The notes under the pieces were generated by a model. It saw only the letters and a program-made list of their open reading frames with translations. It was not told the DNA's origin and did no database searches. Source: Acetobacterium woodii DSM 1030 (lineage in GTDB: Bacteria; Bacillota; Clostridia; Eubacteriales; Eubacteriaceae). From it: a DNA stretch of 64,000 nucleotides. Location of the stretch: the NCBI RefSeq assembly GCF_000247605.1, contig NC_016894.1, positions 3,585,732 to 3,649,731 on the forward strand, written 5' to 3'. The translations under genes and the position numbers were made by a program. Below, piece after piece: positions 12,401 to 50,200 of this stretch (positions are counted from its first letter, which is position 1; the number at the start of each line of letters is the position of its first letter).

Positions 12401-12463
12401 AAAGATTTAATGCAGATATTCTGCTAAATCCGCTTCCTGATCATTTAAGTCCTATTCATCCAC

Positions 12464-12559: not shown

Positions 12560-12562
12560 ATC

Positions 12563-12640: not shown

Positions 12641-12655
12641 TTTATATCGATCAAA

Positions 12656-12996: not shown

Positions 12997-13079
12997 AACT
13001 GAAATAATTTCAAAAGGAGCTACAAACGGAAAAACCAAAAATAATCGACTGCCAATAGTTCGCGCTATCGGCGTTCACT

Positions 13080-13256
13080 TTATTTTTCTTCTACTACTGT
13101 TGCATTCGTATTTCGCAAAATATTATGCAAATTTTCAACTTCAGTATCTAATTGATCCACAAGATTCATAATATCTCTAAGCTTATTCGTTGCTTCTTCA
13201 CAACCGATGTCCATCGTTACATTCAGTCTCAATTTTTCACTTGGTCCCCAACCCAT
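13080..13256 (-). CDS. Hypothetical phage early protein (58 aa)
   Basis: It starts at ATG 13256 behind leader copy E. The product has a short beta segment (KLRLNVTMDIG) and a long helix (EEATNKLRDIMNLVDQLDTEVENLHNIL) that could form a coiled coil. Same overall plan (RLKI/VSLDI-type strand then helix) as the 14212 gene, so the two may be distant relatives. Function unknown. Confidence 0.55.
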   Translation of the reverse strand: MGWGPSEKLRLNVTMDIGCEEATNKLRDIMNLVDQLDTEVENLHNILRNTNATVVEEK

Positions 13257-13342
13257 CCTTCTCACCTCCTAACTGACTTTTTATTTTTACTCTTGTTTCT
13301 TTTTGTTCAACCTCCTATAATTAAGTTGTCAACTCAGCAAAG
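13257..13342. promoter_or_regulatory. Leader repeat copy E with plus-strand sigma-A promoter
   Basis: Minus: CAGTTAGGAGGTGAGAAGG before ATG 13256. Plus: TTGTTT (13293-13298), 17 nt, TATAAT (13316-13321), then TAAGTTGTCAAC. It drives the zinc-ribbon gene at 13370. Confidence 0.72.
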
Positions 13343-13369
13343 TTGAAATCTATGAAAGGAGGCACTCAA

Positions 13370-13510
13370 ATGAATAAAACTGGTGAAAAACCTGGTAAGG
13401 GAACTTACAAATGTACAAAATGTGGGCAACTTGTTGTACTAGATGATAGTTCTGATACCTTGCCCCCTTGCCCTAAATGTAGCAATACCAAATTCACTAA
13501 GGTTGGATAA
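13370..13510 (+). CDS. Small zinc-ribbon protein (46 aa)
   Basis: A ribosome site AAAGGAGGC precedes ATG. The sequence GTYKCTKCGQLVVLDD then PPCPKCSNTKF has two CxxC knuckles and is a rubredoxin/zinc-ribbon-like fold, a common stand-alone small protein in Clostridia. Expressed from the plus promoter of copy E and convergent with the 13497 gene, with a 14-nt overlap. Role unknown; as cargo in the array it is probably expressed during lysogeny. Confidence 0.72.
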   Translation: MNKTGEKPGKGTYKCTKCGQLVVLDDSSDTLPPCPKCSNTKFTKVG

Positions 13511-13649
13511 CATTAAAATGTTTACTCCATAGTATTTTTTTAAACCATTGACGCCAAATTGTAATTTGCTCATTACCATTGGCGTCTTTGAAGTGGCTAT
13601 AATACATCAAAGGCAACGCCTGCTTCAGATTAAATATAAATTTTTTCAT
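13497..13649 (-). CDS. Hypothetical small protein (50 aa)
   Basis: It starts at ATG 13649, eight bases after AGGAGG of leader copy F. The sequence is aromatic and basic (KKFIFNLKQALPLMYYSHF; ITIWRQWFKKILWSKHF), possibly membrane-surface associated. Its 3' end overlaps the convergent zinc-ribbon gene. No family recognised. Confidence 0.55.
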   Translation of the reverse strand: MKKFIFNLKQALPLMYYSHFKDANGNEQITIWRQWFKKILWSKHFNVIQP

Positions 13650-13700
13650 CCTTCTCACCTCCTATCCGGCTTTTTGTTTTTCCTTTACTCTGATATAATG
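13650..13700. promoter_or_regulatory. Leader repeat copy F with plus-strand promoter
   Basis: Minus: GGATAGGAGGTGAGAAGG before ATG 13649. Plus: TATAAT at 13694-13699; the -35 is weak (TTTTTG at 17 nt, or TTGTTT at a 14-nt spacing). It serves the gene at 13731, whose ribosome site is TTGAGGAG. Confidence 0.6.
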
Positions 13701-13730
13701 AATTAATTAATTTTGAGGAGAAAATAACTC

Positions 13731-14252
13731 ATGCAAGGATTTGAAGCCATTAGTTTACTTGTCGCCTTCATCGCGCTAATAATTTCTTTAGCAACACTTC
13801 AACAGAATAGAAACATCGTTGAAGAATCAAATCGTGCGTATATTGTTCTATACATCGATCGTGAAAGGCCAGATGACTACAAGAGCATTGTCTTAAAAAA
13901 CTTTGGTAAAACAAGTGGGATTCTTTTATCGGTTGAGTTCGACCCGCCGTTACCAGTAGATAAATCAAAAATTCATCGTAATAACCGACCTTTATTGACC
14001 GATTTCAAAAACATCTTTTTCGCACCAGGCCAATCATTTAAAACACATTTCGATTTAAAGAACGACGACGCTCAAATATTTAATGTCATTGTGATTTACG
14101 AAACACTTGGTCGTACTATCAAAGAAAGTTATTCGATTGATCTTACTTTCCGCAAAAGTTTATATCGTCTAAAAACTGATGCTGAAACCGAGTTAGATGC
14201 TCTAAAAACAATCAGTCAAAGCATTCTTGAAGTTTCTGACAAGCTCTCCTGA
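13731..14252 (+). CDS. Membrane-anchored beta-domain accessory protein
   Basis: 173 aa. An N-terminal transmembrane helix (ISLLVAFIALIISLATL, residues 6-22) is followed by QQNRNIVEESNRAYIVLYID, then a beta-rich domain with NFGKTSGILLSVEFDPPL. This layout recurs in unnamed bacterial and prophage proteins in which a small sandwich domain faces the membrane. It is read from copy F against the early operon and its 3' end overlaps the convergent 14212 gene by 41 nt. A superinfection-exclusion role is possible but not shown. Confidence 0.65.
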   Translation: MQGFEAISLLVAFIALIISLATLQQNRNIVEESNRAYIVLYIDRERPDDYKSIVLKNFGKTSGILLSVEFDPPLPVDKSKIHRNNRPLLTDFKNIFFAPGQSFKTHFDLKNDDAQIFNVIVIYETLGRTIKESYSIDLTFRKSLYRLKTDAETELDALKTISQSILEVSDKLS

Positions 14253-14436
14253 CTGCATTGGCCACTTCATCCTTATCACAGATATCAGCATTGATATCTA
14301 AGCTAATTGTTACAGTTGGTTCGCCACTAATAATTCTTCCATCCTGGGTATAAACAGGAGTACCATATCCAAGGGTTGATACTATTTTTAATCTTGTCGG
14401 ATATAAATCGTAATTAGTTTTTCTATTCTCTGCCAT
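14212..14436 (-). CDS. Hypothetical phage early protein (74 aa)
   Basis: ATG 14436 behind leader copy G. The sequence TRLKIVSTLGYGTPVYTQDGRIISGEPTVTISLDINADI is beta-rich, followed by a helix with cysteines (VRRACQKLQEC). The first codons (AENRK) resemble those after copies B and H, so repeat homology runs into the coding region. Function unknown. Confidence 0.57.
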   Translation of the reverse strand: MAENRKTNYDLYPTRLKIVSTLGYGTPVYTQDGRIISGEPTVTISLDINADICDKDEVANAVRRACQKLQECFD

Positions 14437-14517
14437 CCTTCTCACCTCCTAACTGATTTTTATTTTTACTCTTGTGCTGGTTATCATCTTTTTCTATAAT
14501 TGGAATATCAGCTTCAT
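14437..14517. promoter_or_regulatory. Leader repeat copy G with plus-strand promoter
   Basis: Minus: CAGTTAGGAGGTGAGAAGG before ATG 14436. Plus: TTGTGC (14472-14477), 17 nt, TATAAT (14495-14500), then TGGAATATCAGCTT. It drives the gene at 14551. Confidence 0.7.
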
Positions 14518-14550
14518 ATGGTTGAAATTTGAACTATAGGTGGTGTTTAA

Positions 14551-14787
14551 GTGTCTGATTACTCAAATCTGAAAGAAATAAAAGAAGTTTATAATCAAAG
14601 TGACGTCAACCGCTTATTAAAAAACGGTTGGAAACTTCTAAATATCTACAATGCTCCAGACCCATATGTTCCCAAAGCGCAATGTGCAACCTATGTGATG
14701 GGATTCATGGTTGAACCTTGGCCAAGATCTGAAATTGCTGAACCCGATGACCCGTATTCTCATTACGATGAAAACGATAGTCTTTAG
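14551..14787 (+). CDS. Small accessory protein with VNxLLxxGWxLL motif (78 aa)
   Basis: GTG start with ATAGGTGG seven bases upstream. The N-terminal motif SDVNRLLKNGWKLLNIYNAP is a short helix plus glycine-tryptophan turn seen in many small plasmid, phage and ICE proteins of unknown role. The next gene on the other strand (14784) has a related EANELL...W segment, so the convergent partners may be homologous. The stops overlap by 3 nt. Confidence 0.6.
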   Translation: MSDYSNLKEIKEVYNQSDVNRLLKNGWKLLNIYNAPDPYVPKAQCATYVMGFMVEPWPRSEIAEPDDPYSHYDENDSL

Positions 14788-14930
14788 CGTCTCCCAAAAA
14801 TAAACAGTAAACCAGTTGCCGTCTTTGTGATTCTTAAAATTTCCCAAACTCGGTTATCTTTATCAAGAAGTTCGTTTGCTTCCTCAACCGAACGAACTTC
14901 TTTAACTTCCTTTACGTCTTGCATTTTCAT
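14784..14930 (-). CDS. Small early protein with EANELL motif (48 aa)
   Basis: ATG 14930 lies eight bases after the AGGAGGTGA that also forms the end of the upstream Xre gene. The sequence VEEANELLDKDNRVWEILRI resembles the N-terminal motif of the convergent 14551 product. Short and basic at the C-terminus. Function unknown. Confidence 0.5.
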   Translation of the reverse strand: MKMQDVKEVKEVRSVEEANELLDKDNRVWEILRITKTATGLLFIFGRR

Positions 14931-14935
14931 CCTTC

Positions 14936-15142
14936 TCACCTCCTAATTTGGCTTTTTTCCACTATTTGAATTTCCAATCCTAAAGCATCCAGTAACTGAA
15001 CCAAGCTTTTATAAGTAATATTTTTTTCTCCTGATTCCCATAAGTAGATTGTTTTAAATGAAAAATTGGCAATGTCAGCCAGTTCCTTAACTGATAACCC
15101 TCTTTCTTCTCTTTTATTTTTGATAAATTTGTTGATATTCAT
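14936..15142 (-). CDS. Xre-family HTH regulator (68 aa)
   Basis: A compact Cro-type domain: INKFIKNKREERGLSVKELADIANFSFKTIYLWESGEKNITYKSLVQLL. The chosen start is ATG 15142 with AAAGG upstream. The last codons (ATT AGG AGG TGA) form the ribosome site of the next gene. The start codon overlaps the -35 of the divergent promoter at 15142, so it may control the 15232 gene and itself. A fragment of its 3' end is duplicated at 12563. Confidence 0.78.
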   Translation of the reverse strand: MNINKFIKNKREERGLSVKELADIANFSFKTIYLWESGEKNITYKSLVQLLDALGLEIQIVEKSQIRR

Positions 15143-15169
15143 TGACACACCTTTCTTAAATGGTACAAT
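15142..15169 (+). promoter_or_regulatory. Sigma-A promoter for the 15232 gene
   Basis: TTGACA (15142-15147), 16 nt, TACAAT (15164-15169). Following ATATAGTATGTTGATATATCGTGATCACAATATGTG-like half-repeats to 15206 could be an operator for the divergent Xre protein. The -35 overlaps the Xre start codon. Confidence 0.7.
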
Positions 15170-15231
15170 ATATAGTATGTTGATATATCGTGATCACAAT
15201 ATGTGAAATATTTAGGAAGGAGATCCATAAC

Positions 15232-15489
15232 ATGAGTTTTGAAGGTGCACTCATTTCAGAACAGGGACAGAAATTTGCAATTGTTTCCGTAAAATCATAT
15301 GTCATTAACAGTTCTGACCGTGAACAAGTAAGAAGTTCTTTTATCCCGGTCTTTGGAAACATACCAATAATTCTGATGTCACAAAATTCAAAAGGTATTC
15401 CAACATATCATGGTCGAAAAGATATTGTGAAATTTCTTGCAAACATTCATATTAGTCAAATACCTTGGAAGAAATACACTCTAAATTAG
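15232..15489 (+). CDS. Hypothetical accessory protein (85 aa)
   Basis: ATG 15232 follows AGGAAGGAGATC, a strong ribosome site; the open frame extends upstream without one. The sequence FAIVSVKSYVINSSDREQVRSSF and IPIILMSQNSKGIPTYHGR resembles a small barrel of unknown role. It is divergent from the Xre gene, so it is probably under its control, and converges on the 15452 gene with a 38-nt overlap. Confidence 0.62.
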   Translation: MSFEGALISEQGQKFAIVSVKSYVINSSDREQVRSSFIPVFGNIPIILMSQNSKGIPTYHGRKDIVKFLANIHISQIPWKKYTLN

Positions 15490-15634
15490 CAACTTGTTCA
15501 TAATTTCCTACTAATTGCCCCAAATGCTCTTCACAAACAAATCGCTTTTCTAATACACCTGGGGCAATTTCAACTTCATCCAGAATTACTCCCTCGTTTT
15601 TGCATCCTAAGTAAGCACATTTTCTATCTGCCAT
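15452..15634 (-). CDS. Small cysteine-rich early protein (60 aa)
   Basis: ATG 15634 behind leader copy H. The sequence MADRKCAYLGCKNEG then FVCEEHLG gives CxxxxC...CxxH, a probable small zinc finger. First codons again resemble those after copies B and G. Function unknown; zinc-finger peptides of this size in phage early regions are often host-takeover or regulatory factors. Confidence 0.57.
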   Translation of the reverse strand: MADRKCAYLGCKNEGVILDEVEIAPGVLEKRFVCEEHLGQLVGNYEQVANLECISSKVFD

Positions 15635-15707
15635 CCTTCTCACCTCCTAACTTGGTTTCTTATTTTTACTCTTGTTTCAACTTCAAAATAAACCTATATC
15701 GTCAGTT
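15635..15707. promoter_or_regulatory. Leader repeat copy H with weak plus-strand promoter
   Basis: Minus: AAGTTAGGAGGTGAGAAGG before ATG 15634. Plus: TTGTTT (15672-15677), 17 nt, TATATC (15695-15700), then GTCAGTTTTTTT. The only plus frame is 18 codons (15713-15769), without a ribosome site. Confidence 0.62.
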
Positions 15708-15770
15708 TTTTTATGTTTGAAATTACATTAAAGGATGCTCAGAGCATTGCCCACAAAAATAAGAAATGAG

Positions 15771-15947
15771 CTATTCCATCCCTACTTTTATTTCAAAATC
15801 ATAATTCTCAAGTTTTTCAATTGTGTTTTTGAGCAGTTGCATTTGAACTATCGCTTGTTCTAATAATTCTTCAAATGCTTTATTGCTTCTTGCTGAAATA
15901 TGCAACTCATTTTGGTTGGTGTGCATAATCATCTTATCTTTATCCAG
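15771..15947 (-). CDS. Hypothetical early protein (58 aa) with CTG at the conserved start position
   Basis: The leader AGGAGGTGAGAAGG is followed by CTG where most copies have ATG. An ATG five codons later could also serve. The product is helical (NKAFEELLEQAIVQMQLLKNTIEKLENYDFEIK). Second case, with 12126, of a changed start in this array. Function unknown. Confidence 0.5.
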   Translation of the reverse strand: MDKDKMIMHTNQNELHISARSNKAFEELLEQAIVQMQLLKNTIEKLENYDFEIKVGME

Positions 15948-15959
15948 CCTTCTCACCTC

Positions 15960-16211
15960 CTAACTTGGTTTTTGATTTCTGTCGTATTTAGTCCCATATT
16001 CTTGTACTTCAAGATTAAAAAAATATCCAACAGGTTTATTAAGAATTGAAGCAATCTCGGTCATTACGTTTAATTTAGGTATTGTCTTCCCAAGCTCTAT
16101 ATATCTATACGTTGACTTGCTTTTATAACCTAGTTTATAAGCCATTGCTTCATATGTTAGACCTTTTTTCTTTCTTTCTTCTCTTAGCTTATCAGAATAA
16201 ACTAACACCAA
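15960..16211 (-). CDS. Cro-like Xre repressor, first gene of the early operon
   Basis: About 83 aa with HTH (SDKLREERKKKGLTYEAMAYKLGYKSKSTYRYIELGKTIP). Start TTG 16211 or GTG 16208 after GGGAGGTGAG. Divergent from the CI-like gene and transcribed from the promoter at 16249-16277 with operators on it. Its stop TAG is part of the leader TTAGGAGG of the next gene, like the Xre gene at 14936. This is the expected position for Cro. Confidence 0.8.
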   Translation of the reverse strand: MVLVYSDKLREERKKKGLTYEAMAYKLGYKSKSTYRYIELGKTIPKLNVMTEIASILNKPVGYFFNLEVQEYGTKYDRNQKPS

Positions 16212-16227
16212 TAACTCACCTCCCTAC

Positions 16228-16277
16228 GTACGAGTATCTCGTACATTTATTATAGTACACGATTCTCGTACTGTCAA
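16228..16277 (-). promoter_or_regulatory. Early promoter (PR) with two repressor operators
   Basis: Minus-strand TTGACA (16277-16272), 17-nt spacer, TATAAT (16254-16249). Operator O1 is a perfect 7-3-7 palindrome, GTACGAGTATCTCGTAC (16228-16244), at the start point. O2, GTACACGATTCTCGTAC (16255-16271), fills the spacer exactly. Centres are 27 bp apart. A half-site (AGTACTC) lies near 16297. Confidence 0.85.
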
Positions 16278-16326
16278 TATGAAAGTTTTGTATTTTAGTA
16301 CTCTTTGTTTTGTTAGTTCATTCTCT

Positions 16327-16355
16327 TTGTACTTTTATTAGAAGTGTTGTATAAT
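16327..16355 (+). promoter_or_regulatory. Repressor promoter (PRM-like)
   Basis: TTGTAC (16327-16332), 17 nt, TATAAT (16350-16355), about 47 nt before the CI-like start. AAGGTGG gives the ribosome site. Confidence 0.72.
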
Positions 16356-16401
16356 TAATATCAAAACTAATAAGTCTTAAAATTCCATAAGGTGGTTAAT
16401 A

Positions 16402-16890
16402 ATGATTGGCTCAAGATTGAAATATTTAAGAAATCAAAAAAATTTAAACCAAACTGAATTAGCTAACGCATTGTGTTTAGGTGGGAAGACAACTATTTCT
16501 AGTTATGAAAATGGTTATAGTTCTCCAGATAATGAGACTTTAAGTAAAATCGCTGATTATTTCCACGTCTCCACCGATTATCTCCTTGGTCGAACAGACA
16601 ACCCACTACCAGTGCGTGACGTTGATCAGGATCTGCATGATGAACAAGACGTCGAGTCCCAGTGGCGTGCTTTTGTCAAAAAATATTCAAACGATCGTTT
16701 GATGTTTTTAAACTATGAAGATGCTGACGATGAACAAAAGCTGCTGATTATGGAGGAATACCTTGAAGCGCTTGAAAAGAAAAAGAAAAGGGTTGAAAAA
16801 TTTATGGACTACCCATTAGAAGTGATCGACGAAGCTTTGAATTTTGCAGCGTATAATGTAGAACAGCGGAAGAAAAAAAACAATGTTTAA
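16402..16890 (+). CDS. CI-like phage repressor (Xre family)
   Basis: 162 aa. N-terminal HTH (GSRLKYLRNQKNLNQTELANALCLGGKTTISSYENGYSSPD) followed by YLLGRTDNP, typical of SinR/ImmR-type repressors, and a C-terminal region without the S24 LexA-like protease. Repressors without S24 are usually inactivated by an ImmA-type protease, which is encoded at 17781. It presumably holds the palindromic operators at PR and maintains lysogeny. Confidence 0.85.
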   Translation: MIGSRLKYLRNQKNLNQTELANALCLGGKTTISSYENGYSSPDNETLSKIADYFHVSTDYLLGRTDNPLPVRDVDQDLHDEQDVESQWRAFVKKYSNDRLMFLNYEDADDEQKLLIMEEYLEALEKKKKRVEKFMDYPLEVIDEALNFAAYNVEQRKKKNNV

Positions 16891-16959
16891 AAACAGGTCT
16901 TATTAAATTCTGTTTTTTTACGCCCCAAATTTAAGAACGATCTTTTAAGGAGCAATAAA

Positions 16960-17595
16960 ATGGATTTAATTCTCGCAAATATCCAATCTATTGGCGCAAA
17001 ATTGCCACTTATAGTAGGTTGGCTTGTCACAATTTACATAGCTAAATACTCTGCAACAAAGCCAATGAAGGTTGAAATAAAAAAAGCGCAATATCATAAA
17101 GTATATTCACCAATATATATATATTTACGTGATCTAAAGCAGAATGAACCAGAACGCGTAATATCTCGCAAAGAAGTTGCCTATATTTACTCAATATTTA
17201 GAGCTAATTTTTCTCTTGTAGAGCTAAACAATATTTTATTGTGTGAAAAAATTCTAATTAAAATAAAATTAGGCGAAAATTATGAGGATGATTTTATAAA
17301 ATTATACCAAAAAATAAACATTAAGTACTTACTGCTGAGAAAATCCATTGGCTATCCCTCTATTAATATTTTAAGTTCCTTCAATGAAGCACCACGCAAC
17401 TTAAAAATAATGATTGTTTTATCCATTCTTGCATTTATTGTTAGTTCAATCCTTGCTCTAGAATATTTATTTTCTTTAATTGATACTATATTTTCATCAT
17501 TTGAATTTAACAATATTCTGTATTTTATTATTTATGCTTCTGGATTTATTCTGTTGATAGTTTTTTTAATTGAAAAAATTCGCAGTAATAAATAG
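16960..17595 (+). CDS. Membrane protein in the lysogeny module, exclusion/abortive-infection candidate
   Basis: 211 aa with one N-terminal transmembrane segment (LPLIVGWLVTIYIAKY, residues 15-30), a cytoplasmic helical middle, and two C-terminal segments (IMIVLSILAFIVSSILAL; ILYFIIYASGFILLIVFL). It sits between repressor and ImmA, a slot often used by superinfection-exclusion or Abi genes expressed in lysogens. No family recognised; AT-rich relative to neighbours. The defence role is inference from position. Confidence 0.65.
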   Translation: MDLILANIQSIGAKLPLIVGWLVTIYIAKYSATKPMKVEIKKAQYHKVYSPIYIYLRDLKQNEPERVISRKEVAYIYSIFRANFSLVELNNILLCEKILIKIKLGENYEDDFIKLYQKINIKYLLLRKSIGYPSINILSSFNEAPRNLKIMIVLSILAFIVSSILALEYLFSLIDTIFSSFEFNNILYFIIYASGFILLIVFLIEKIRSNK

Positions 17596-17659
17596 TCTTC
17601 CTAAAATCTAAGTATTTCAATTATCATTATATATTTTCTTCAATTTTTTTAACACTTTC

Positions 17660-17690
17660 CTGGGAACCTAAAGCAAGTTCCCAGTTTTTT
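17660..17690 (+). terminator. Strong terminator of the repressor/membrane-protein transcript
   Basis: Stem CTGGGAAC (17660-17667)/GTTCCCAG (17677-17684), 9-nt loop, followed by TTTTTT. Confidence 0.88.
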
Positions 17691-17721
17691 CTTCATAACA
17701 AATATTTACTCTATTTATCTA

Positions 17722-17733
17722 GAACATCTGTTC
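17722..17733 (+). promoter_or_regulatory. SOS/LexA-like box upstream of immA
   Basis: GAACATCTGTTC matches the Gram-positive LexA pattern GAAC-N4-GTTC. It overlaps the expected -35 region of a promoter with -10 TAGAAT (17745-17750) ahead of the ImmA gene at 17781. A further AACGTTCTTTTT stretch follows. Confidence 0.6.
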
Positions 17734-17780
17734 TTTTTATGTGTTAGAATAAACAAACGTTCTTTTTAAGGAGGATTGTC

Positions 17781-18224
17781 ATGTATAACACACAACGGAT
17801 GAAATCTATTTTTCTACACCAAAAATATAAACTCTCTACCTTTCCCATCCCAATCTGGCAAATTGAACAAGTTATCATTGACAATGGTTATGATATTTGC
17901 GTTTCTAAAAAATCAAAATTGTCTTTTATTTTAAGCACCACAGTTTTTGTGCCAAATTTCTGTGATTCTCAAGCCCGTTTCTGTTTGAGCCATGAGTTAG
18001 GTCATATTTTATGTAATCATTACGATGTGTATCATGTAGACAAATATACCAAAAGCAAGTATGAATCCCAAGCGAATGCCTTTGCATTCTATTTTCTGAT
18101 GCCCCCGGAATCTTTCGAGATCAACGCAAAATCCTTTAATATATATGAACTGGCGGAATTATATGGGGTGCCATTTGAAGCCGTTAAAAATCGTTTTAAA
18201 CTAATTTCAGAAGTTAATAATTAA
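17781..18224 (+). CDS. immA: ImmA/IrrE-family metallopeptidase
   Basis: 147 aa with the zinc protease motif HELGH (CLSHELGHILCNHYD, about residue 74) and QANAFAFYFLMP, the COG2856 pattern. Such proteases cleave ImmR/CI-like repressors after DNA damage and trigger excision and induction. AAGGAGGATTG precedes ATG. The SOS-like box upstream suggests its own synthesis rises during the SOS response. Followed within 17 nt by the integrase gene. Confidence 0.88.
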   Translation: MYNTQRMKSIFLHQKYKLSTFPIPIWQIEQVIIDNGYDICVSKKSKLSFILSTTVFVPNFCDSQARFCLSHELGHILCNHYDVYHVDKYTKSKYESQANAFAFYFLMPPESFEINAKSFNIYELAELYGVPFEAVKNRFKLISEVNN

Positions 18225-18241
18225 CCTTAGGAGGTGTATTT

Positions 18242-19285
18242 ATGAAATTACCAAATGGTTTTGGAAATATCAGTAAACTATCTGGTAAAAGAAGAAATCC
18301 TTGGCGAGCGAGAAAAACTTGCGGATGGGAGACAATTGAAGATGACAAACTAGTCCAAAAATTTATAACAATTGGTTATTACCCCACCCGCCAGGATGCC
18401 CTGCAAGCTCTTTCTAATTTTAATGAGAATCCTTATGACATTCAAACAGAGAAAGCAACTTTCGAAGATATTTATATAGCATGGTCAAAAGAACATTTTG
18501 AAAAGATTGTTCCATCGGCCGCACGAACATGGAAAAGCGCCTACAAGTATTGTAGCCCAATTTACAAAATAAAAATGAAAGACCTTCGAGTCAATCATCT
18601 GGAACAAACAATAAAAAATGCAAAAGTTGGCGATGCCACAAAAAGTCGAATAAAGTCTTTATTTAATCAAATGTTCCGCTATGCAATGAGGCATGAAATA
18701 GTCGACAAAAATTATGCTGAAATCTGCAATACTGTTAAAAGCCCAAGGCCCACAAGAGACAATGTCCCATTTACAAAAAAAGAACTGCAAATTTTGTGGA
18801 ATAATATATCTTTTCCATTTGCAGATATGGTCTTAATTGGTGTATACTCAGGATGGCGACCACAAGAATTGGCGACTCTAAAAATTGAAGATATTGACTT
18901 GAAAAATCATACGATGTGTGGCGGTCTAAAAACCGATGCTGGAAGAAACCGGATCGTTCCAATCCACTCGAAAATTTATGACTTAATAGAAAAACGCTAT
19001 GATCCGGAGAATGAATTTCTTTTTTATGATGAGAATGGACAACAAGGCAAAACAATGACCTACGATAAATATCGTGGTCGATTTAATAAAATAAATGAAA
19101 AGTTCGGTTTCAAACATCGCCCTCATGAAACAAGACACACTTTTATTACGATGGCTAAAGAAGCCCAGGTAAATGACTATGTATTGAAGTTGATGGTTGG
19201 ACATGCTATAGAAGATATCACGGAAAAAGTTTATACTCACAGAACGTTGGAGCAGCTTAAAACTGAGATTGAAAAGATCAAATAA
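18242..19285 (+). CDS. int: Prophage integrase (tyrosine recombinase)
   Basis: 347 aa with a complete domain order: N-terminal arm-type DNA-binding region (KRRNPWRARKTCGW, AP2-like), SAM-like core-binding domain (TFEDIYIAWSKEHFEK...), and catalytic domain with Arg (YSGWRPQELATL), His-x-x-Arg (RPHETRHTFI), His (MVGHA) and Tyr (EKVYTHRT). GGAGGTGTATTT precedes ATG. It is the outermost gene of the prophage, so the attachment site should lie at 19.3-19.5 kb. Confidence 0.93.
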   Translation: MKLPNGFGNISKLSGKRRNPWRARKTCGWETIEDDKLVQKFITIGYYPTRQDALQALSNFNENPYDIQTEKATFEDIYIAWSKEHFEKIVPSAARTWKSAYKYCSPIYKIKMKDLRVNHLEQTIKNAKVGDATKSRIKSLFNQMFRYAMRHEIVDKNYAEICNTVKSPRPTRDNVPFTKKELQILWNNISFPFADMVLIGVYSGWRPQELATLKIEDIDLKNHTMCGGLKTDAGRNRIVPIHSKIYDLIEKRYDPENEFLFYDENGQQGKTMTYDKYRGRFNKINEKFGFKHRPHETRHTFITMAKEAQVNDYVLKLMVGHAIEDITEKVYTHRTLEQLKTEIEKIK

Positions 19286-20686: not shown

Positions 20687-21481
20687 TTAGACAGATTTTT
20701 TGTGGGCTAATTTCCGATAGGCATCTGGTGTGAGATACCCCAATGACGAGTGTATTCGAATGTTGTTGTACCAGTTGACATAATCAGAAAGCATGAGCTT
20801 TAAATAATCCAATCTGTCAAATGCGTATTGGTTAGCGAATTCTGTCTTGAAGACTTTAAAAGCGCTTTCAGCAACAGCATTGTCATAAGGGCAGCCTTTG
20901 TTGCTCAAGGAACGTTTGATATTAAAGGTTTCAATAACACCGTCAATCACATTATTTTTAAATTCACTTCCCCGGTCAGTATGGAAAATTGAAATCTGAT
21001 CCAACCGGTATCTGATCCTGGCAAAAGCTTCATAAACCAGCTGTGCGGTTTTGTTTGGCCCGGCGCTGTATCCGATAATTTCCCGATTGTAAAGATCAAC
21101 GATCAGGCAAACATAGTTCCATTTTCCACCAACCCGAACATAAGTCAGATCACTGACCGCCACTTCCAGTGGTGCCCGTCCATTAAATTCCCGGTTCACT
21201 TCATTGGGGACTGGATCCTGATTAACTGGTTGTTTATGGACTTTGTATTGGGCGACGGTATAATTCGAAACGAGGCCATTCTCCCGCATAATGCGACCAA
21301 TCCGTCTTCGGGAAGCAACAATCCCTTTGACTTCAAGTTGATGTTTGATTTTGCGGGTTCCGTAATTCTTGCGGCTCATTTTGAAAATTTCAATCACATC
21401 CGCGATAATCGGATCGACTCCATTCGTCTTTTTTGAAATGTAGTAATAGGTACTTTTGGGGATATTCAGGACTCTGCACAT
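20687..21481 (-). CDS. IS3-family transposase OrfB (DDE integrase domain)
   Basis: 264 aa from its internal ATG. HTH_21-like start (MCRVLNIPKSTYYYISKK), then rve core with catalytic Asp (VSDLTYVRVGG), Asp (FHTDRGSEF) and Glu (NAVAESAFKVFKTE), ending with the usual YNNIRIHSSLGYLTPDAYR. In the intact element it is made as an OrfAB fusion: on the minus strand ...GGA CGA AAG TAG allows a -1 slip at AAAG into the orfB frame (GTA GAG GTT). No lesions seen, so it may be active. Confidence 0.93.
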   Translation of the reverse strand: MCRVLNIPKSTYYYISKKTNGVDPIIADVIEIFKMSRKNYGTRKIKHQLEVKGIVASRRRIGRIMRENGLVSNYTVAQYKVHKQPVNQDPVPNEVNREFNGRAPLEVAVSDLTYVRVGGKWNYVCLIVDLYNREIIGYSAGPNKTAQLVYEAFARIRYRLDQISIFHTDRGSEFKNNVIDGVIETFNIKRSLSNKGCPYDNAVAESAFKVFKTEFANQYAFDRLDYLKLMLSDYVNWYNNIRIHSSLGYLTPDAYRKLAHKKSV

Positions 21482-21522
21482 TGCTGATACCGAGTAGCGG
21501 TCTTGATTGGCTCGAATAACCT

Positions 21523-21807
21523 CTACTTTCGTCCTATGATCAGCGCTGCCTGCTTTAAAATGTCGTTTTCCATTAATAAACGTTGGTTTTCTTTTCTCAA
21601 GCGGATCAGTTCATTTTCTTCATCAGTGCGGTTGTCATTTTCTTTGAACGAGCCTGAAGACTGATGTTGTTTGATCCATTTATCAAGTGACGATGCCGTC
21701 AAATCATATTCTTTAACAATTTCACTTCGGGGTTTTCCGTTAAGGTACAACTGCACCATCTGGTTTTTGAATTCATCGGTAAAACTTCGTCTTGGTCTTT
21801 TGGTCAT
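21523..21807 (-). CDS. IS3-family transposase OrfA
   Basis: 94 aa HTH_Tnp_1 protein: RPRRSFTDEFKNQMVQLYLNGK with recognition helix around SLDKWIKQH, then a leucine-zipper-like coiled coil (ENELIRLRKENQRLLMENDIL), both typical of OrfA. GGAGACCTGCC lies before the ATG. Its stop sits at the AAAG frameshift site leading into orfB. Confidence 0.92.
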   Translation of the reverse strand: MTKRPRRSFTDEFKNQMVQLYLNGKPRSEIVKEYDLTASSLDKWIKQHQSSGSFKENDNRTDEENELIRLRKENQRLLMENDILKQAALIIGRK

Positions 21808-42445: not shown

Positions 42446-45256
42446 ATGTATGATAAATTGTTTGTCAAAGGAACAATTGGAAAACTAACGTTAAAAAATC
42501 GGTTAGTCATGTCACCCATGGGGGTCGGTCTGGCTGAACTGGATGGTTCACCAACGGAAGATATGATTGCTTTCTACGAAGCTCGGGCCCTTGGTGGCGC
42601 CGGCTTGATCATCCCTGAAATTACCCGTGTAAACGATACCCATGGAGCCGGAATGCTGCGTCAGCTTGCGGTCACCAAAGATCGTCACATTGAACCATTA
42701 TCACGACTGGCGCAAGCGGTCCATAAACATGGTTCAAAAATCTTTATCCAACTTCATCACCCCGGCCGTGAAACGATGACCACGCTGGTCGGCGGACCAG
42801 TCGCTGCGCCATCGGCGATTCCCTGCAATTTTCTCAAACAGCCGACCCGGGCGCTGGAAAATGCTGAAATCAAGGCTCTCGTCCAACAGTTTATCGACGG
42901 GGCCGGGCGCGTTCAAAAAGCCGGTTGTGACGGTGTTGAACTGCATGCCGCTCATGGTTATCTGATCAATCAGTTTTTAAGCCCTTATACCAATAAACGT
43001 GACGATGAATACGGCGGCAGTTTTGACAACCGGCTGCGTTTTATTGCCGAAATCATCGCCGGAATTCGAACCACCTGCGGTGCTGATTTTCCGATCAGCG
43101 TCCGTCTTTCAGTTGAAGAATTTTTAAGTAATGTTGGCGTCACCGAAGATTATATTCACATCCAGGATGGTGTCAAGATTGCCATGGCTTTGGAACAACT
43201 GGGGATTGATGTGATCAATGTCAGCGCTGGTATTTATGAAACTGGCTCAGTTTGTGTGGAACCGATTTCCTTCCCTCAAGGCTGGCGCCGAGATCTGATC
43301 AAAGCGGTTAAAGATCATGTTTCGATTCCGGTCATCGCTGTTTCCGCCATTCGTGAACCGGCCGTTGCCGAAACATTTTTAGCCGACGGAATCGTCGATT
43401 TTGTCGCTTTAGGCCGGGCCTGGCTGGCTGATGAAACATGGGGACTTAAAGTCAAAGAAGGCCGGGAGGATGAATTATGCAAATGTATCTCCTGCCTGCG
43501 TTGCTTTGAAAGTTTAAACGAAAACAATGCCGTTGGTCTGCCCCTCGTCTGTTCTGTAAACCCCCGTTTGGCTCGCGAACAAAAACTTGGCAATTTAGCT
43601 CACGATGCCCGCGCTCATAAAGTCGTTGTGATCGGTGGCGGTGCCGCTGGTATGTCAGCCGCCCGCACGTTGGCACTCCGGGGCATTCAGGTAACCCTGT
43701 TCGAAAAAGAAAAGACCCTTGGCGGACTTATTAATATTGCTAAAATGCCCCCTCATAAAGGCGTAATGGACTGGATCGGCCAATATTATCAAAACGAATT
43801 TGCGCGTTTAAATGTTGAGGTTAAACTAAATACCGAAGCAACCGTTTCCCTATTAGAAGAACTAAAACCCGATGCCGTCATTCTTGCCACCGGCAGTACT
43901 GCCATTGTTCCTAATCGAATCCCTGGTGTTCATGGCGACAACGTCTTTGGCATTGACAGCATCCTTTCTGGTGCGGCCGGATTAAAAGACAAAAGAGTCG
44001 TCCTGATCGGTGCCGGAATGAGCGGTATTGAAACTGCCGAATATCTGTGTGCCGCTGGAAATTCCGTTACCATCGTCGATATGTTAGATAAGGTCGCTCC
44101 CGACGGCAATGGCACCAATGTTTTGGATGTTACCGGACGTCTGGCCAAATATGGTGCAACTTACCTGCTCTCCCACGCCCTCAAAGAAATTAAATCAGAC
44201 GGCGTAATCCTTGAAAAATTAGCCGATCATTCGGAAGTTACGGTCCCAGCCGACGCTGTTGTTTTGTCTTTGGGTTATTGCCCGAATAATTCACTTTTGG
44301 AAGCGCTCCAGACAAAATTCGAACACGTCGAAATTATCGGCGATGCTCTTAAAGTTGACCGGATTGAACCAGCTATCCGGGCCGGTTTTGAAGTCGGCCG
44401 TCAGCTGTTTATTGAGCAACCCAAAACAACCAGTTTTCTAACCGCGAAAGAAGATTTACAGAATTTTGGTAAAACTTCTTTGATGGATAATCAGGAAGGC
44501 CTCTATCTTAGCTTTCTTACCGATCCCGCTGTTATCGCACGGTTGTTGCCACCACCGCTTAAACCGTTCTCGATGCCGGTAGTAACCCTATCGATCGCTC
44601 ACGTTAAAAACCCCTCTTTTTCCGATGATTATTATGAAGCCATCCTGGGTGTTTATGCGATGCACGGAAAAGATTTGGGCCTCTATCCGCTAAGTCTGCT
44701 CCTCGGTGGCCCCGGCGCCGAAATGGCGGTCCAGCTTGGTCGCGATAATGGTAGCATTCCCAAAAAACTGGGCGCAGAATTTGTGATTCGCCAAACCGGC
44801 AAGACAATTACTGCCAGTGTCAGCCGCCGCGGGGTTCAGTTAATTGAAGCCAAACTGGAACTTGGCGAAACCAATAGTCCCCTGACCGGCGCCCTGTATC
44901 AGTTCCCGGAACCGGGCAAACATACCTATGGCGGTGGCTTTTATTATCATTTTGACCGAGTCCCCGATCGCGAAGGAGTGTCTCATTTTACAAATGCTGC
45001 CTTGCTTCAGAATCTCTGTGAATACACTTACAAATCCTGGGAACCGGGTTTTGTTAGCCTCAAACTGCATTCCAGCATCGATGATCCCTGGGGCGAAATT
45101 CCCATCAACACCATCGTCGGCGGAGCCTATTCGGAAAACAGTCTGCTGGTTCATAAACTGAATTTAGTCGAACCCTTAAGTGCCGATGAAATTGTCCCTT
45201 ATTTGATGGCCGGTTATTACGACCGCACCGCCTTTATGGAAACCGGACGAAAATAA
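42446..45256 (+). CDS. OYE-family reductase fused to acetoacetate-decarboxylase-like domain
   Basis: 936 aa. Residues 1-350: FMN barrel (LFVKGTIGKLTLKNRLVMSPMGVG; HAAHGYLINQF; DDEYGGSFDNR). Fe-S cysteines CKCISCLRCFESL (about 350). Nucleotide-binding motifs VVVIGGGAAGMSAAR (about 393) and VVLIGAGMSGIETAE (about 516). From about 660 an extra domain reads GLYLSFLTDPAVIARLLPPPLKP...YEAILGVYA...SIPKKLGAEFVI...VSRRGVQL, matching acetoacetate decarboxylase; lysines 773/774 fall at the Schiff-base position. It may reduce and then decarboxylate or aldol-process a keto acid. AATATGGAGGAAAACA precedes ATG. Confidence 0.87.
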   Translation: MYDKLFVKGTIGKLTLKNRLVMSPMGVGLAELDGSPTEDMIAFYEARALGGAGLIIPEITRVNDTHGAGMLRQLAVTKDRHIEPLSRLAQAVHKHGSKIFIQLHHPGRETMTTLVGGPVAAPSAIPCNFLKQPTRALENAEIKALVQQFIDGAGRVQKAGCDGVELHAAHGYLINQFLSPYTNKRDDEYGGSFDNRLRFIAEIIAGIRTTCGADFPISVRLSVEEFLSNVGVTEDYIHIQDGVKIAMALEQLGIDVINVSAGIYETGSVCVEPISFPQGWRRDLIKAVKDHVSIPVIAVSAIREPAVAETFLADGIVDFVALGRAWLADETWGLKVKEGREDELCKCISCLRCFESLNENNAVGLPLVCSVNPRLAREQKLGNLAHDARAHKVVVIGGGAAGMSAARTLALRGIQVTLFEKEKTLGGLINIAKMPPHKGVMDWIGQYYQNEFARLNVEVKLNTEATVSLLEELKPDAVILATGSTAIVPNRIPGVHGDNVFGIDSILSGAAGLKDKRVVLIGAGMSGIETAEYLCAAGNSVTIVDMLDKVAPDGNGTNVLDVTGRLAKYGATYLLSHALKEIKSDGVILEKLADHSEVTVPADAVVLSLGYCPNNSLLEALQTKFEHVEIIGDALKVDRIEPAIRAGFEVGRQLFIEQPKTTSFLTAKEDLQNFGKTSLMDNQEGLYLSFLTDPAVIARLLPPPLKPFSMPVVTLSIAHVKNPSFSDDYYEAILGVYAMHGKDLGLYPLSLLLGGPGAEMAVQLGRDNGSIPKKLGAEFVIRQTGKTITASVSRRGVQLIEAKLELGETNSPLTGALYQFPEPGKHTYGGGFYYHFDRVPDREGVSHFTNAALLQNLCEYTYKSWEPGFVSLKLHSSIDDPWGEIPINTIVGGAYSENSLLVHKLNLVEPLSADEIVPYLMAGYYDRTAFMETGRK

Positions 45257-46262: not shown

Positions 46263-46292
46263 AAGGGGGATGTTTCGTTTGTTACATCCCCC
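46263..46292. terminator. Hairpin between SDR and Acb2-like genes
   Basis: AGGGGGATGT/ACATCCCCCT, 10-nt loop. There is no T-run directly after it; it may terminate both convergent genes. Confidence 0.6.
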
Positions 46293-46327
46293 TAAAACTT
46301 AGAAATATCCCCCCATAAAAATTGCCG

Positions 46328-46696
46328 TTATTTTTTATGGGTGCCGCTAACCTCCCGTTTAATTCGGTCTTCAACCCGTCGGTTTAACCACATAATCGCT
46401 GTTTCGATATGCACTAACGCCATCGCATTTTCAGTACATTCGAACTCACCTTCCTGGAATAATTTCAAGCGATCTCTAACGATCTCAAGCAAATCTGAAT
46501 CGATGACCCCGACTTCCGATCCTGATTCTTGTCGGGCTCCTTTTTGAAACTTGATTCTTGCCAGTTCGATTGGTTCATCGCGATCATTTGTTTGAACGAC
46601 ATATTCATAAGGGGCATTTCCGATCCCCTTTTCATCTTCTCGATAAACCTCATTGAGACTCCCTTTATACTGTACCGTTGTTAACTTACCACTCAT
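46328..46696 (-). CDS. Acb2/Tad1-like hairpin-domain protein
   Basis: 122 aa. From about residue 50: RIKFQKGARQESGSEVGVIDSDLL...VRDRLKLFQEGEFECTENAMALVHIETAIMWLNRRVEDRIKREVSGTHKK. This follows the phage consensus F-Q-x-G-x-x-x-E-x-G-x-x-G...RL-x-x-F-Q-x-G-x-F-x-C-x-E-N-A-x-A-L-x-H-x-E-x-A-x-x-W-L-x-x-R-x-x-x-R-x-x-R-x-V-x-G-T. Proteins with this helical-hairpin core include the Acb2 cyclic-nucleotide and Tad1 gcADPR sponges that defeat CBASS and Thoeris; many relatives have no tested role. Single gene with no phage genes nearby. Call from memory of the family consensus. Confidence 0.72.
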   Translation of the reverse strand: MSGKLTTVQYKGSLNEVYREDEKGIGNAPYEYVVQTNDRDEPIELARIKFQKGARQESGSEVGVIDSDLLEIVRDRLKLFQEGEFECTENAMALVHIETAIMWLNRRVEDRIKREVSGTHKK

Positions 46697-47061
46697 TTTT
46701 AATCCTCTTTCTACCTTTTACCAAGGTTTTAAATCATCTTAAACGTTTTCTTTTGTAACCTTAAACAACTGGCAAACGACTTAAATTACTAAACTCTCTG
46801 TCTCGTAATAAACAATCGTATTATAAATTCGCATATTATTAACCATATTCCTCATTCATTATTTTAGCATCATGTTCTTGTAACAAAGATTATATTATTT
46901 ATACCCTAATCGATATCATTCACGCATTGAACAATTTATTTTAGCATTCCATACTAATTATTTTCATCTTTCGAGATTCATGATCATTACAATATTTTTT
47001 AATTCACTTTGTTTATTTTATTTCGCTTTCATTTTTTTCAATATTGACGTTTTTAATGACA

Positions 47062-47136
47062 CGTTTCAAATTGAAAACGCTTGACAAAAGTCAACCTTCA
47101 TAATATTATTGTAAAAAGGTATATTTTCGATACCTT
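47062..47136 (+). promoter_or_regulatory. Promoter and operators of the amino-acid ABC operon
   Basis: TTGACA (47081-47086), 17 nt, TATTAT (47104-47109). A near palindrome CGTTTCAAATTGAAAACG (47062-47079) abuts the -35, and AAGGTATATTTTCGATACCTT (47115-47135) sits at the start of the transcript. The leader to the first gene is about 110 nt. Apart from this the 46697-47230 gap is AT-rich with no gene. Confidence 0.65.
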
Positions 47137-47230
47137 ATGTAGCAATGGAGCTTCGAGTATACTATTTTAATGCGTATATTTACGAAAGTTCCTTTTTTGC
47201 TTATTGACATTAAATTCGGAGGAAAAATAA

Positions 47231-47953
47231 TTGATTAAACTTCAAGATGTAAATAAATTTTTTGGCGATCACCATGTCTTAAAAGATATTAATTTAACGG
47301 TTGCTGAAGGCGAAAAATTGGTTATTATCGGTCCATCGGGTTCTGGTAAAAGCACCACTGTTCGTTGTATGAATTTTTTAGAAACACCTTCTTCCGGACA
47401 TGTTTTTGTTGATGGTGAAGAACTAACCGCTAAAAATAAAACTCAACTTGTGCGCCGTACATCGGCTATGGTATTTCAGAGTTTTAACTTGTACCCCCAT
47501 AAAACGGTATTAGAAAATCTAACCCTGGCTCCGATAAAACTACAAAATATTCCTAAAGAAGAGGCCATCGCCAAAGCCAAAAAATATTTAGCTATTGTTG
47601 GTCTTAGTGAAAAGGAAAATGCTTATCCTTCGACTCTGTCCGGCGGCCAACAACAACGTGTCGCAATTGCCAGAGCGTTGGCAACCGAACGAAAAATTAT
47701 CCTTTTTGATGAACCAACCTCCGCGCTTGATCCGGAAACTGTTCAAGAAGTGCTTGATGTTATGATCAAACTCTCCAAAGAAAATATCACCATGGTGGTC
47801 GTTACCCACGAAATGGGGTTTGCCCGGGTTGTTGCTGACCGTGTCATCTTTATGGATGACGGCCGCATCATTGAAGAAGGAAAACCGGAGCATTTCTTTG
47901 AAAACCCTTCCGAGGAACGAACGAAACTTTTTCTTAGTAAAATCTTGCGTTAA
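47231..47953 (+). CDS. Polar amino-acid ABC transporter ATP-binding protein (GlnQ-like)
   Basis: 240 aa, TTG start with TCGGAGGAAAAATAA upstream. Walker [18 protein letters not shown]-loop [10 protein letters not shown], signature [15 protein letters not shown], Walker [16 protein letters not shown]-loop THEMGFA. GlnQ/HisP subgroup (EMGFAR...GRIIEEG). Powers uptake by the two permeases and lipoprotein encoded downstream. Confidence 0.95.
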
Positions 47954-48015
47954 TTTCTAATATTCATACCCTGATATTAGATTTTATAGTTATTATATTT
48001 AGGAGGAAAATGATT

Positions 48016-48825
48016 ATGAAAAAGATGCTTTCTGCTCTGCTTGTTTTGTGCCTGGTTTTTACCCTGGCCGCTTGCTCGTCTTCAACTGGTTCAAGTAATA
48101 CTGCGTCTAAAACCGATGGCAGTCTTGATGCGGTCGTTAAAGCCGGCGTTTTAAAAGTTGGTGTTAAAGAAGACGTTCCGAATTTTGGACTTCGCAACAC
48201 TGCAACCGGTGAAATCGAAGGATTCGAAGTTGATATTGTTAAGCTTCTTGCCGGTAAAATTCTGGGTGATGAAAATGCTTATGAATTAACTCCTGTAACA
48301 GCTAAAACACGTGGTCCATTACTGGATAATGGCGAAGTCGATCTGGTTATTGCAACATTCACCATTACCGATGAACGAAAATTAACGTATAACTTTTCAA
48401 CCCCTTATTATGAGGATGCGGTTGGCCTATTAGTTAAAAAAGATTCGGGCTATAAAGGTCTTGCTGACATGAATGGCGCCGTTATCGGTGTTGCTCAAAG
48501 TGCGACATCTAAAGAAGCAGTTCAAAAAGTAGCCGATGAAAAAGGAATTAAGGTCTCATTCTCTGAATATGCAACCTATCCGGAAATCAAGGCCGCTTTA
48601 GACTCCGGCCGTGTTGATGCTTTCTGTGTTGACGGTTCAATCCTTGGCGGTTACGTTGATGATACGACCATGATTTTACCTGATCGATTCGCACCGCAAC
48701 AATATGGTGTTGCTTCTAAACTTGACAACGTCACGCTTTCTGAAGCGGTTGACAGTGATATCAATGAATGGCTCAAAGACGGAACAATTGAAGGTCTAAT
48801 CACGAAATGGGGACTTAACTACTAA
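48016..48825 (+). CDS. Amino-acid ABC transporter substrate-binding lipoprotein
   Basis: 269 aa from ATG 48016 (AGGAGG nine bases upstream; an ATG at 48010 is too close). Signal MKKMLSALLVLCLVFTLAAC with lipobox LAAC, then SBP_bac_3 domain (LKVGVKEDVPNFGLRNTATGEIEGFEVDIVKLLAGKIL...TFTITDERKLTYNFSTPYY). Most like glutamate/aspartate binders but ligand is not fixed by sequence. It overlaps the first permease by 1 nt. Confidence 0.94.
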   Translation: MKKMLSALLVLCLVFTLAACSSSTGSSNTASKTDGSLDAVVKAGVLKVGVKEDVPNFGLRNTATGEIEGFEVDIVKLLAGKILGDENAYELTPVTAKTRGPLLDNGEVDLVIATFTITDERKLTYNFSTPYYEDAVGLLVKKDSGYKGLADMNGAVIGVAQSATSKEAVQKVADEKGIKVSFSEYATYPEIKAALDSGRVDAFCVDGSILGGYVDDTTMILPDRFAPQQYGVASKLDNVTLSEAVDSDINEWLKDGTIEGLITKWGLNY

Positions 48826-49547
48826 TGAAAAGCGCTAATCCTTTTGCCTTATGGCGTTGGGAGAAGATGTTTGGCGAATGGCAAATGTTTGGCGAAGGGT
48901 TTCTGCGAACGATTGAGGTCGCAGCCCTCGCCTTAATCCTTGCTCTTATTCTGGGTATTATTTTTGGTGTTATCTCAACCTCAAACAATAAGATAATGCG
49001 GGGGATATCAAGGGTTTACGTTGAGTTCTTTCAAAACACTCCTCTGGTCATACAAGTTTTCTTTATGTATAATGGTCTGGCTATTGCCGGACTGCGGTTA
49101 AGTGTGTTTGTAATTGGTGTTTTAGGGGTGGGCATTTATCATGGCGCTTATGTTTCAGAAGTTGTCAAAACCGGAATTATCTCAATCCCAGTGGGACAAA
49201 TCGAAGCTGCCAAGTCCCAGGGTTTCACTTATATCCAATATATGCGTTATATCATTCTCCCCCAAACAATCAAAATTATTCTCCCACCACTCACAAATCA
49301 AGCCGTTAATTTAATTAAAAACACGTCAGTTCTGGCCATGATTTCAGGTTTTGATCTGATGTATATGGCTGATTCATGGGCATCGTCCAGTCTCGATTAT
49401 GGTCCGTCCTATGTCTTTGCCGGTTTTTTATATTTTATCCTCTGTTTTCCTTTGGCAACCTGGGCAAGAAAATACGAAGAACGTCTCAAACAAAACGATT
49501 CTACGCACCTGCCATTTGATCAAATTGAGGAGGCGGTTACATGCTAG
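48825..49547 (+). CDS. Amino-acid ABC transporter permease 1
   Basis: 240 aa, about five transmembrane segments (TIEVAALALILALILGIIFGVIS; etc.) and the EAA loop EAAKSQGFTYIQYMRYIILPQ of HisM/GltJ-type permeases. Begins directly at the SBP stop (TAATGA overlap) and overlaps permease 2 by 7 nt. Confidence 0.94.
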   Translation: MKSANPFALWRWEKMFGEWQMFGEGFLRTIEVAALALILALILGIIFGVISTSNNKIMRGISRVYVEFFQNTPLVIQVFFMYNGLAIAGLRLSVFVIGVLGVGIYHGAYVSEVVKTGIISIPVGQIEAAKSQGFTYIQYMRYIILPQTIKIILPPLTNQAVNLIKNTSVLAMISGFDLMYMADSWASSSLDYGPSYVFAGFLYFILCFPLATWARKYEERLKQNDSTHLPFDQIEEAVTC

Positions 49548-50200
49548 CTGTTTTTAAAAATGTATTGACGCCTTCAAACGTTGAGTTTCTGGCTAAAGGG
49601 ATGGGTTTAACATTAATGCTTTCGGTGTTAGTTGTTATTGTCTCAATCCTTTTTGGTACTATTCTGGCCTTGCTGCGAACCTATGAAAAACGATTTTTTG
49701 GCAAATTAGCTGGTTTTTATATTGAAATGTTTCGTAACACACCCTTGCTGCTCTGGATTCTGGTGTGCTGCTTTATGATTCCCTATGGCACCATTGTTAT
49801 TCGTGGTGGTCTTGCCTTAACCTTATATACTTCGGCCGTTATCGCCGAAATTGTTCGTGGCGGTTTGAATTCTATTGCCGAAGGACAATTTGAAGCTGCA
49901 ACATCACAAGGTTTTACGCTGATCCAAACATTGATGTATATTGTCCTGCCCCAATGTTTTAAGAGTATTATTCCTTCGCTTTTATCGCAAGTCATTACAA
50001 CGGTTAAAGACACCTCGTTTTTACAAGTTGTTGCGATTCCCGAATATACTCGCAGCGGATTTGTTGTGATGGGACGCTATACCAATACCAGTGAAGTCTT
50101 CATGATTTTTGCGATTCTGGCCGTTGGTTACTTTGTGATCTGTTTTAGTCTTTCTTGCGTTGTTCGCGGCTATCAAAAAAGAACTGAAATGGCCCAATAA
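49541..50200 (+). CDS. Amino-acid ABC transporter permease 2
   Basis: 219 aa HisQ/GltK-type permease with EAA loop EAATSQGFTLIQTLMYIVLPQ and N-terminal GLTLMLSVLVVIVSILFGTILALLR. With permease 1 it forms the heterodimeric channel. GAGGAGGCGGTTAC before ATG. Confidence 0.94.
   Translation: MLAVFKNVLTPSNVEFLAKGMGLTLMLSVLVVIVSILFGTILALLRTYEKRFFGKLAGFYIEMFRNTPLLLWILVCCFMIPYGTIVIRGGLALTLYTSAVIAEIVRGGLNSIAEGQFEAATSQGFTLIQTLMYIVLPQCFKSIIPSLLSQVITTVKDTSFLQVVAIPEYTRSGFVVMGRYTNTSEVFMIFAILAVGYFVICFSLSCVVRGYQKRTEMAQ

Follow-up and report, generated by a model that had tools for sequence, protein, structure and literature searches.

A phage-type Tad1 sponge gene conserved as a stand-alone chromosomal gene in Acetobacterium, possibly for a host role

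The acetogen Acetobacterium woodii DSM 1030 encodes on its chromosome a homolog of Tad1, a phage sponge protein that sequesters nucleotide immune signals. The gene lies in a 64,000-nucleotide stretch (contig NC_016894.1, positions 3,585,732 to 3,649,731), referred to here as the window, whose coordinates we use throughout unless a locus is named. We propose, at a probability of roughly 0.6, that this phage sponge is now a conserved stand-alone chromosomal gene of Acetobacterium, kept for a host role in damping nucleotide alarms; the argument, drawn from sequence, is that chromosomal copies that are selected and free of phage point to use by the host. The gene and its two predicted domains are as follows.

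46328..46696, minus strand: tad1, encoding a full-length Tad1 of 122 residues (open reading frame and homology evidence)
46556..46696, minus strand: codons for residues 1-47, the N-terminal beta domain, where differences from phage Tad1s are greatest
46331..46555, minus strand: codons for residues 48-122, the two-helix hairpin domain plus the C-terminal tail, better conserved than the N-terminal part

The open reading frame (ORF) has an ATG start and a stop codon at its end, its coordinates were confirmed, and it is the single tad1 copy in the A. woodii genome. A phmmer search aligned residues 4-122 of the 122 with the Tad1 of a Clostridium botulinum prophage (PDB 7uav; E 2.4e-35), and by this full-length homology to a characterized Tad1 the ORF is a genuine, full-length member of the family. 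A first-pass annotation of the window had placed the protein in the Acb2/Tad1 class, an assignment that is borne out and can be narrowed to Tad1. PHROG 2428, a family without an assigned function, also matched (E 4.4e-31), and a tblastn search of 50,697 phage records detected relatives in 48, with coverage of 80% or more of the query in 16; the protein annotated as Tad1 in SBSphiJ7 was among these phage relatives. The Tad1 or Tad1-like proteins of PDB 7uav and of phages OLIVR5 and OLIVR6 are labeled "ABC transporter ATPase", a misleading name.

The hairpin had been described as following the consensus closely. The full-length Tad1 match is indeed excellent, but the Pfam hairpin profile PF24729 aligned to residues 84-108 only and scored 22.2 bits against a curated cut-off of 27, a library threshold for the hairpin common to Tad1 and Acb2 that we do not take as defining Tad1. 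The profile comparison that had been suggested thus gave similarity over the full length, with the hairpin scoring under the Pfam cut-off. Two other Acetobacterium copies scored 22.2 and 21.0, while five phage or prophage Tad1s scored 30.5-39.0, which indicates a hairpin version particular to the genus.

An AlphaFold2 model of the single chain, of moderate confidence (predicted local distance difference test score 74, predicted template modeling score 0.50), contains strands at residues 16-19, 31-35, and 44-49 and helices at 66-82 and 88-113, the beta domain plus two long helices expected of a Tad1. The best 20 structural matches to this model in the PDB were all Tad1 (TM score 0.63-0.71, root-mean-square deviation 3.3-4.4). 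The N-terminal 45 residues, which had been singled out as unusual, proved to be the standard Tad1 N-terminal domain; they align with solved Tad1 chains, which rules out an unusual extension.

To compare residues, we took the 58 columns that are conserved in 90% or more of 28 phage-type Tad1s, leaving out proteins of 112 residues or fewer and entering identical non-Acetobacterium proteins once, as in the protein tree described below. Acetobacterium keeps the majority residue at 49 of the 58 columns. Seven of the nine changed columns fall within the first 30 residues, including those of K8, E10, K11, and H28 in cbTad1, the C. botulinum protein, and further genus-specific residues occur in the hairpin. 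The hairpin arginines are kept, as are a phenylalanine (in nine of ten copies, with a tyrosine in the other) and an asparagine (in all ten), which we take to be the cbTad1 ligand contacts F82 and N92. Loss of the ligand-contact residues, which would have spoken against the assignment, was therefore found in part at most: 49 of the conserved columns stand, nine do not, and the identity of the contacts is our own assumption. A. woodii Tad1 is likely to bind a ligand; its specificity may differ from that of phage Tad1s, and the nine changed columns might lie in the ligand pocket. That the fold has been kept for something other than cyclic nucleotide binding would fit those nine changes, the genus-specific hairpin residues, and the low Pfam score, but it sits badly with the 49 retained columns, among them the hairpin arginines, phenylalanine, and asparagine, and we regard it as highly improbable.

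We then considered where tad1 is found. It is present in 10 of 19 Acetobacterium genomes, one copy each (7 of the 14 genomes with a completeness of 90% or more and a contamination of 5% or less), and was not found in the 21 genomes searched from eight other genera of the family, which makes 10 of 40 genomes and one of nine genera overall. In a class-wide sample of 391 genomes there were eight matches, three in Acetobacterium and five elsewhere, one of the latter (G168) being partial and covering profile positions 68-121 only. All five of these non-Acetobacterium matches lie in prophages, surrounded by genes for terminase, major head, portal, or tape-measure proteins, and 3-12 ORFs at each of these loci resemble ORFs of 32 tad1-bearing viral contigs. 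At the ten Acetobacterium loci, taking the window from 19.3 kb onward for A. woodii, Tad1 is the sole ORF with such a resemblance; in the window this means one among 55 ORFs of at least 60 residues that start after 19300. Six further loci were tested in the same way, and several viral-contig-like ORFs were present in L049, L051, L054, and L056, while Tad1 alone matched in L050 and L052. These last two (L050:22-588 and L052:102-668) lie on contigs of Ruminococcus type, where tad1 is terminal and adjoins a RecJ-like gene or a peptidase gene; they may be prophage edges or further stand-alone copies, and we leave this undecided.

Tad1 is usually carried by phages or prophages, but in the window it is flanked by metabolic and transport genes, confirming the earlier description of short-chain dehydrogenase/reductase (SDR) and amino-acid ATP-binding cassette (ABC) genes on either side. 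The same description had the gene away from any recognizable phage, which holds at the locus itself; the window nevertheless contains a prophage at 1-19285, with terminase subunits, a DnaD-like loader, a repressor, and an integrase, 27 kb from tad1. This prophage continues to the left of the window start (locus L189), where further genes read by eye as tail or head genes. We ruled out that tad1 is part of it, as the integrase gene ends at 19285 and the orthologs in other genomes sit elsewhere. Synteny in relatives, which had been proposed as a check, bears out a stand-alone chromosomal tad1 outside prophage at ten Acetobacterium loci.

The ten copies have no internal stop codon. The ratio of nonsynonymous to synonymous divergence (dN/dS) was 0.015-0.099 in 40 of the 45 pairs of Acetobacterium copies, with dS above 1 in many of them; the remaining five pairs gave no dS, owing to saturation. 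Hence, tad1 is under strong purifying selection in Acetobacterium. One suggestion had been that the gene is an anti-defense relic of a lost phage; a decaying relic is contradicted by the intact ORFs and low dN/dS. More broadly, a relic or moron gene that a lost prophage left behind and that does nothing for the cell could be imagined from the otherwise viral occurrence of Tad1, the prophage 27 kb away, and the L050 and L052 copies, which lie at contig ends beside non-phage genes, as would be seen at the edge of a prophage. Against it stand intact genes in all ten carriers, dN/dS that is low even though silent sites are near saturation for many pairs, and ten loci without another phage-like ORF. 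The selection test strongly disfavors this explanation, and we give it very little credence.

The silent divergence of tad1 between A. woodii and the relative G002 (0.64) resembles that of the host genes Der (0.73), DUF4364 (0.69), and DUF512 (0.74), which argues against recent spread, with the proviso that deep pairs are saturated in these comparisons. The ten Acetobacterium Tad1 proteins form one clade with a support of 100/100 in an unrooted tree, which is compatible with transfer in either direction; because of the distribution of tad1, we prefer phage to host.

Under the proposal that Tad1 serves its host, the gene would have entered the Acetobacterium lineage and become a conserved stand-alone chromosomal gene. 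By analogy with cbTad1, A. woodii Tad1 would form a hexamer that traps glycocyclic ADP-ribose (gcADPR) or cyclic dinucleotides in its pockets and cyclic trinucleotides at its trimer interfaces, in each case without degrading them. Least certain are the last steps, in which the cell might keep Tad1 to damp alarm signals, be they products of its own TIR proteins or cyclic oligonucleotide-based antiphage signaling systems (CBASS) or those of newly acquired defense genes, so that cell suicide would fire only past a threshold. The earlier suggestion that a chromosomal copy buffers host nucleotide signals is compatible with these data, and the nine changed columns leave room for another of its suggestions, a new role. 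A more specific version, which we put forward tentatively and hold to be clearly less probable than the proposal as a whole, is that the domesticated viral sponge acts as a regulatory buffer, either setting the threshold of CBASS or TIR suicide or buffering a housekeeping cyclic nucleotide that is connected with amino-acid uptake, its choice of ligand being retuned through the altered N-terminal domain.

Several observations weigh against a host role in immune signaling. Nine of the 19 Acetobacterium genomes lack tad1, so the gene is dispensable, and one old gain with three losses fits the species tree about as well as three separate gains (tree of four proteins from 17 genomes; G009 and G011 were left out for a short contig or no locus). 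The changes in the N-terminal domain and the hairpin score under the Pfam cut-off could both mean altered ligands. There is also no constant immune partner for tad1 among the 19 genomes. ThsB_TIR was found in none of them, with the control positive in one genome, and TIR_2 occurred in nine, without association with tad1 (4 of 10 carriers and 5 of 9 noncarriers); these two results rule out Thoeris as a constant partner. The STALD profile was likewise silent in all 19 genomes, but also in all controls, and is hence uninformative. SMODS cyclases were present in 3 of 10 genomes with tad1 and 0 of 9 without (p 0.21, not significant), leaving seven carriers without one, although the SMODS family model may miss other cyclases. 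Csm1 reached E ≤ 0.001 in all 19 genomes and exceeded the cut-off in one (G012). Finally, a sponge that is always on would compromise the CBASS of its own cell. PADLOC did not detect Tad1.

All three SMODS carriers (A. woodii, G002, and G013) have CBASS operons as well as tad1.

L112:6388-9078 (C1 about 2348387-2351077), A. woodii: CBASS operon with a cyclase, an E2, and a four-transmembrane (4TM) effector
L113:6804-11620, G002: CBASS operon with an endonuclease effector, a cyclase, E1/E2, and JAB
L114:5750-10922, G013: CBASS operon with two cyclases, E1/E2, JAB, and a 4TM effector

The coexistence of sponge and signal maker in three genomes is either a paradox, in that immunity would be blunted, or the purpose, in that a threshold would be set. 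The A. woodii CBASS operon occupies the gap between Der and a XerC-like gene and neighbors a type IIG restriction enzyme; this region is a defense hotspot adjoining the site where relatives carry tad1. An IS3-like transposase pair lies beside the operon (L112:4934-6054), apparently as one of two copies, the other being between the prophage and tad1 (20687-21807). Elsewhere in A. woodii, a 491-residue TIR protein near a DNA methyltransferase (L115:7647-9122) gave ThsB-like PADLOC hits; no ThsA partner was identified for it.

The most regular companion of tad1 is an amino-acid ABC operon, and the surroundings of the pair are as follows.

47231..50200, plus strand: amino-acid ABC operon (ATPase, solute-binding protein, and two permeases), paired with tad1 in seven of the ten carriers
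46697..47230, unstranded: divergent intergenic region between tad1 and the ABC operon; about 200 bases on the ABC side conserved in seven genomes
46264..46293, unstranded: perfect 10-bp inverted repeat in the gap separating the stop codons of the convergent SDR and tad1 genes, a possible transcription end (read directly from the sequence; absent from the terminator scan list)

The best PDB match of the solute-binding protein was the "major cell-binding factor" 2v25 (E 2.3e-83), which we take to be the Asp/Glu-binding PEB1a. On the ABC side of the intergenic region, a promoter-like site (TTGACA-17-TATTAT) and a leader are conserved in seven genomes; the tad1 side is less conserved. The leader includes a hairpin followed by a U run (47147-47192), also conserved in seven genomes and a possible attenuator, with modest folding z-scores of -1.3 to -2.6 and no entry in the terminator scan list. 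The 64-kb window had no Rfam match at the gathering score, which rules out a known RNA element of that database in the intergenic region. On the far side of tad1, 42446-45256 encodes an unusual-looking 936-residue fusion of old yellow enzyme (OYE), pyridine-nucleotide oxidoreductase, and acetoacetate decarboxylase domains.

In six genomes (G002, G004, G006, G014, G016, and G017), tad1 lies between DUF4364-Der and the divergent ABC operon. In A. woodii, the divergent pair instead lies between the SDR gene and GGDEF and Fpg genes, so the pair has been kept together at two chromosomal sites. G008 has tad1 on the DUF4364-Der side with a 910-residue ORF intervening, and the contig stops short of any ABC gene. 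The DUF4364 site is without tad1 and operon in all eight tad1-negative genomes where it was found, as well as in G012, G013, and A. woodii.

This arrangement suggests a housekeeping function, in which Tad1 would bind an ordinary nucleotide such as c-di-AMP or c-di-GMP and adjust amino-acid uptake through the ABC operon rather than act in immunity. In its favor are the divergent pairing in 7 of 10 carriers at two sites, the lack of a constant immune partner, and the occurrence of the operon, traced by orthologs of the solute-binding protein at 83% identity or more, in 9 of 10 genomes with tad1 and 0 of 9 without (Fisher p 1.2e-4, relatedness ignored). However, neighbors that are lost or moved jointly would yield the same pattern, and joint loss of adjacent genes would explain much of it. 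Moreover, G013 has tad1 without the operon, G012 carries the two on separate contigs with other neighbors, the operon adjoining Fpg, and the tad1 side of the shared intergenic region is poorly conserved. We consider this function unlikely.

The two sites could alternatively reflect a small mobile pair, with tad1 and the operon moving between genomes as a block and tad1 serving as cargo or as anti-defense for the incoming DNA. The pair sits beside DUF4364-Der in six genomes and at the SDR-GGDEF/Fpg site in A. woodii, whose DUF4364 site is empty; in the tad1-negative G010, the OYE-SDR and Fpg flanks enclose other genes in place of the pair; parsimony hardly separates three gains from a single gain followed by three losses; and the silent divergence of the ABC genes between A. 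woodii and G002 (0.557 and 0.352) is below that of Der (0.730). Yet no integrase or transposase was noticed adjoining the pair in the seven linked loci, the host-like silent divergence of tad1 speaks against recent transfer, and tad1 had no match in 72,556 plasmid records, a result by which we also ruled out a plasmid origin. Such mobility seems to us improbable.

We return to a host role for a former phage sponge. The stand-alone, well-preserved gene suggests that Acetobacterium has put a viral anti-immune protein to its own use, and it makes testable the question of why a bacterium would sequester the alarm molecules of its own defense systems. The genus keeps tad1 under strong selection, and A. 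woodii is a genetically tractable model acetogen of which deletion mutants have reportedly been described. Among the papers listed by our literature searches, whose scope took in few subscription journals, none reported a host-domesticated Tad1 or sponge.

Among known systems, the sources consulted treat Tad1, Tad2, Acb2, and Acb4 as phage or prophage proteins (PMC12043709, PMC12657218, PMC11722364). Tad2 and Acb4 likewise sequester nucleotide immune signals, have unrelated assemblies and folds (PMC12043709, PMC11722364), and gave no sequence match to A. woodii Tad1. Acb2 (anti-CBASS 2) shares with Tad1 the hairpin family PF24729 and the sponge strategy; it is a short protein with an N-terminal helix and the hairpin but no beta domain, unlike the A. 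woodii protein with its predicted strands in residues 16-49. It is Tad1 that the protein matches over its full length, and the eight PDB sequences listed by phmmer include none named Acb2. Tad1 itself is described as a hexamer of three dimers whose shared pockets sequester gcADPR or cyclic dinucleotides and whose trimer interfaces sequester cyclic trinucleotides, without degrading them (PMC12043709); CbTad1 also activates Panoptes, probably by depleting a decoy nucleotide, according to PMC12657218. The closest relatives are cbTad1 of the C. botulinum prophage (PDB 7uav, 7uaw, 8smd, 8kbe, and 8kbf) and CmTad1 (8kbb-8kbd), with which A. woodii Tad1 is homologous over its full length and shares the predicted two-domain fold and most conserved residues. 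Acetobacterium Tad1 departs from them in its altered N-terminal residues, in a hairpin that scores under the Pfam cut-off, and in its gene, which lies on the host chromosome outside phage DNA, is conserved in the genus, and is linked to an ABC operon.
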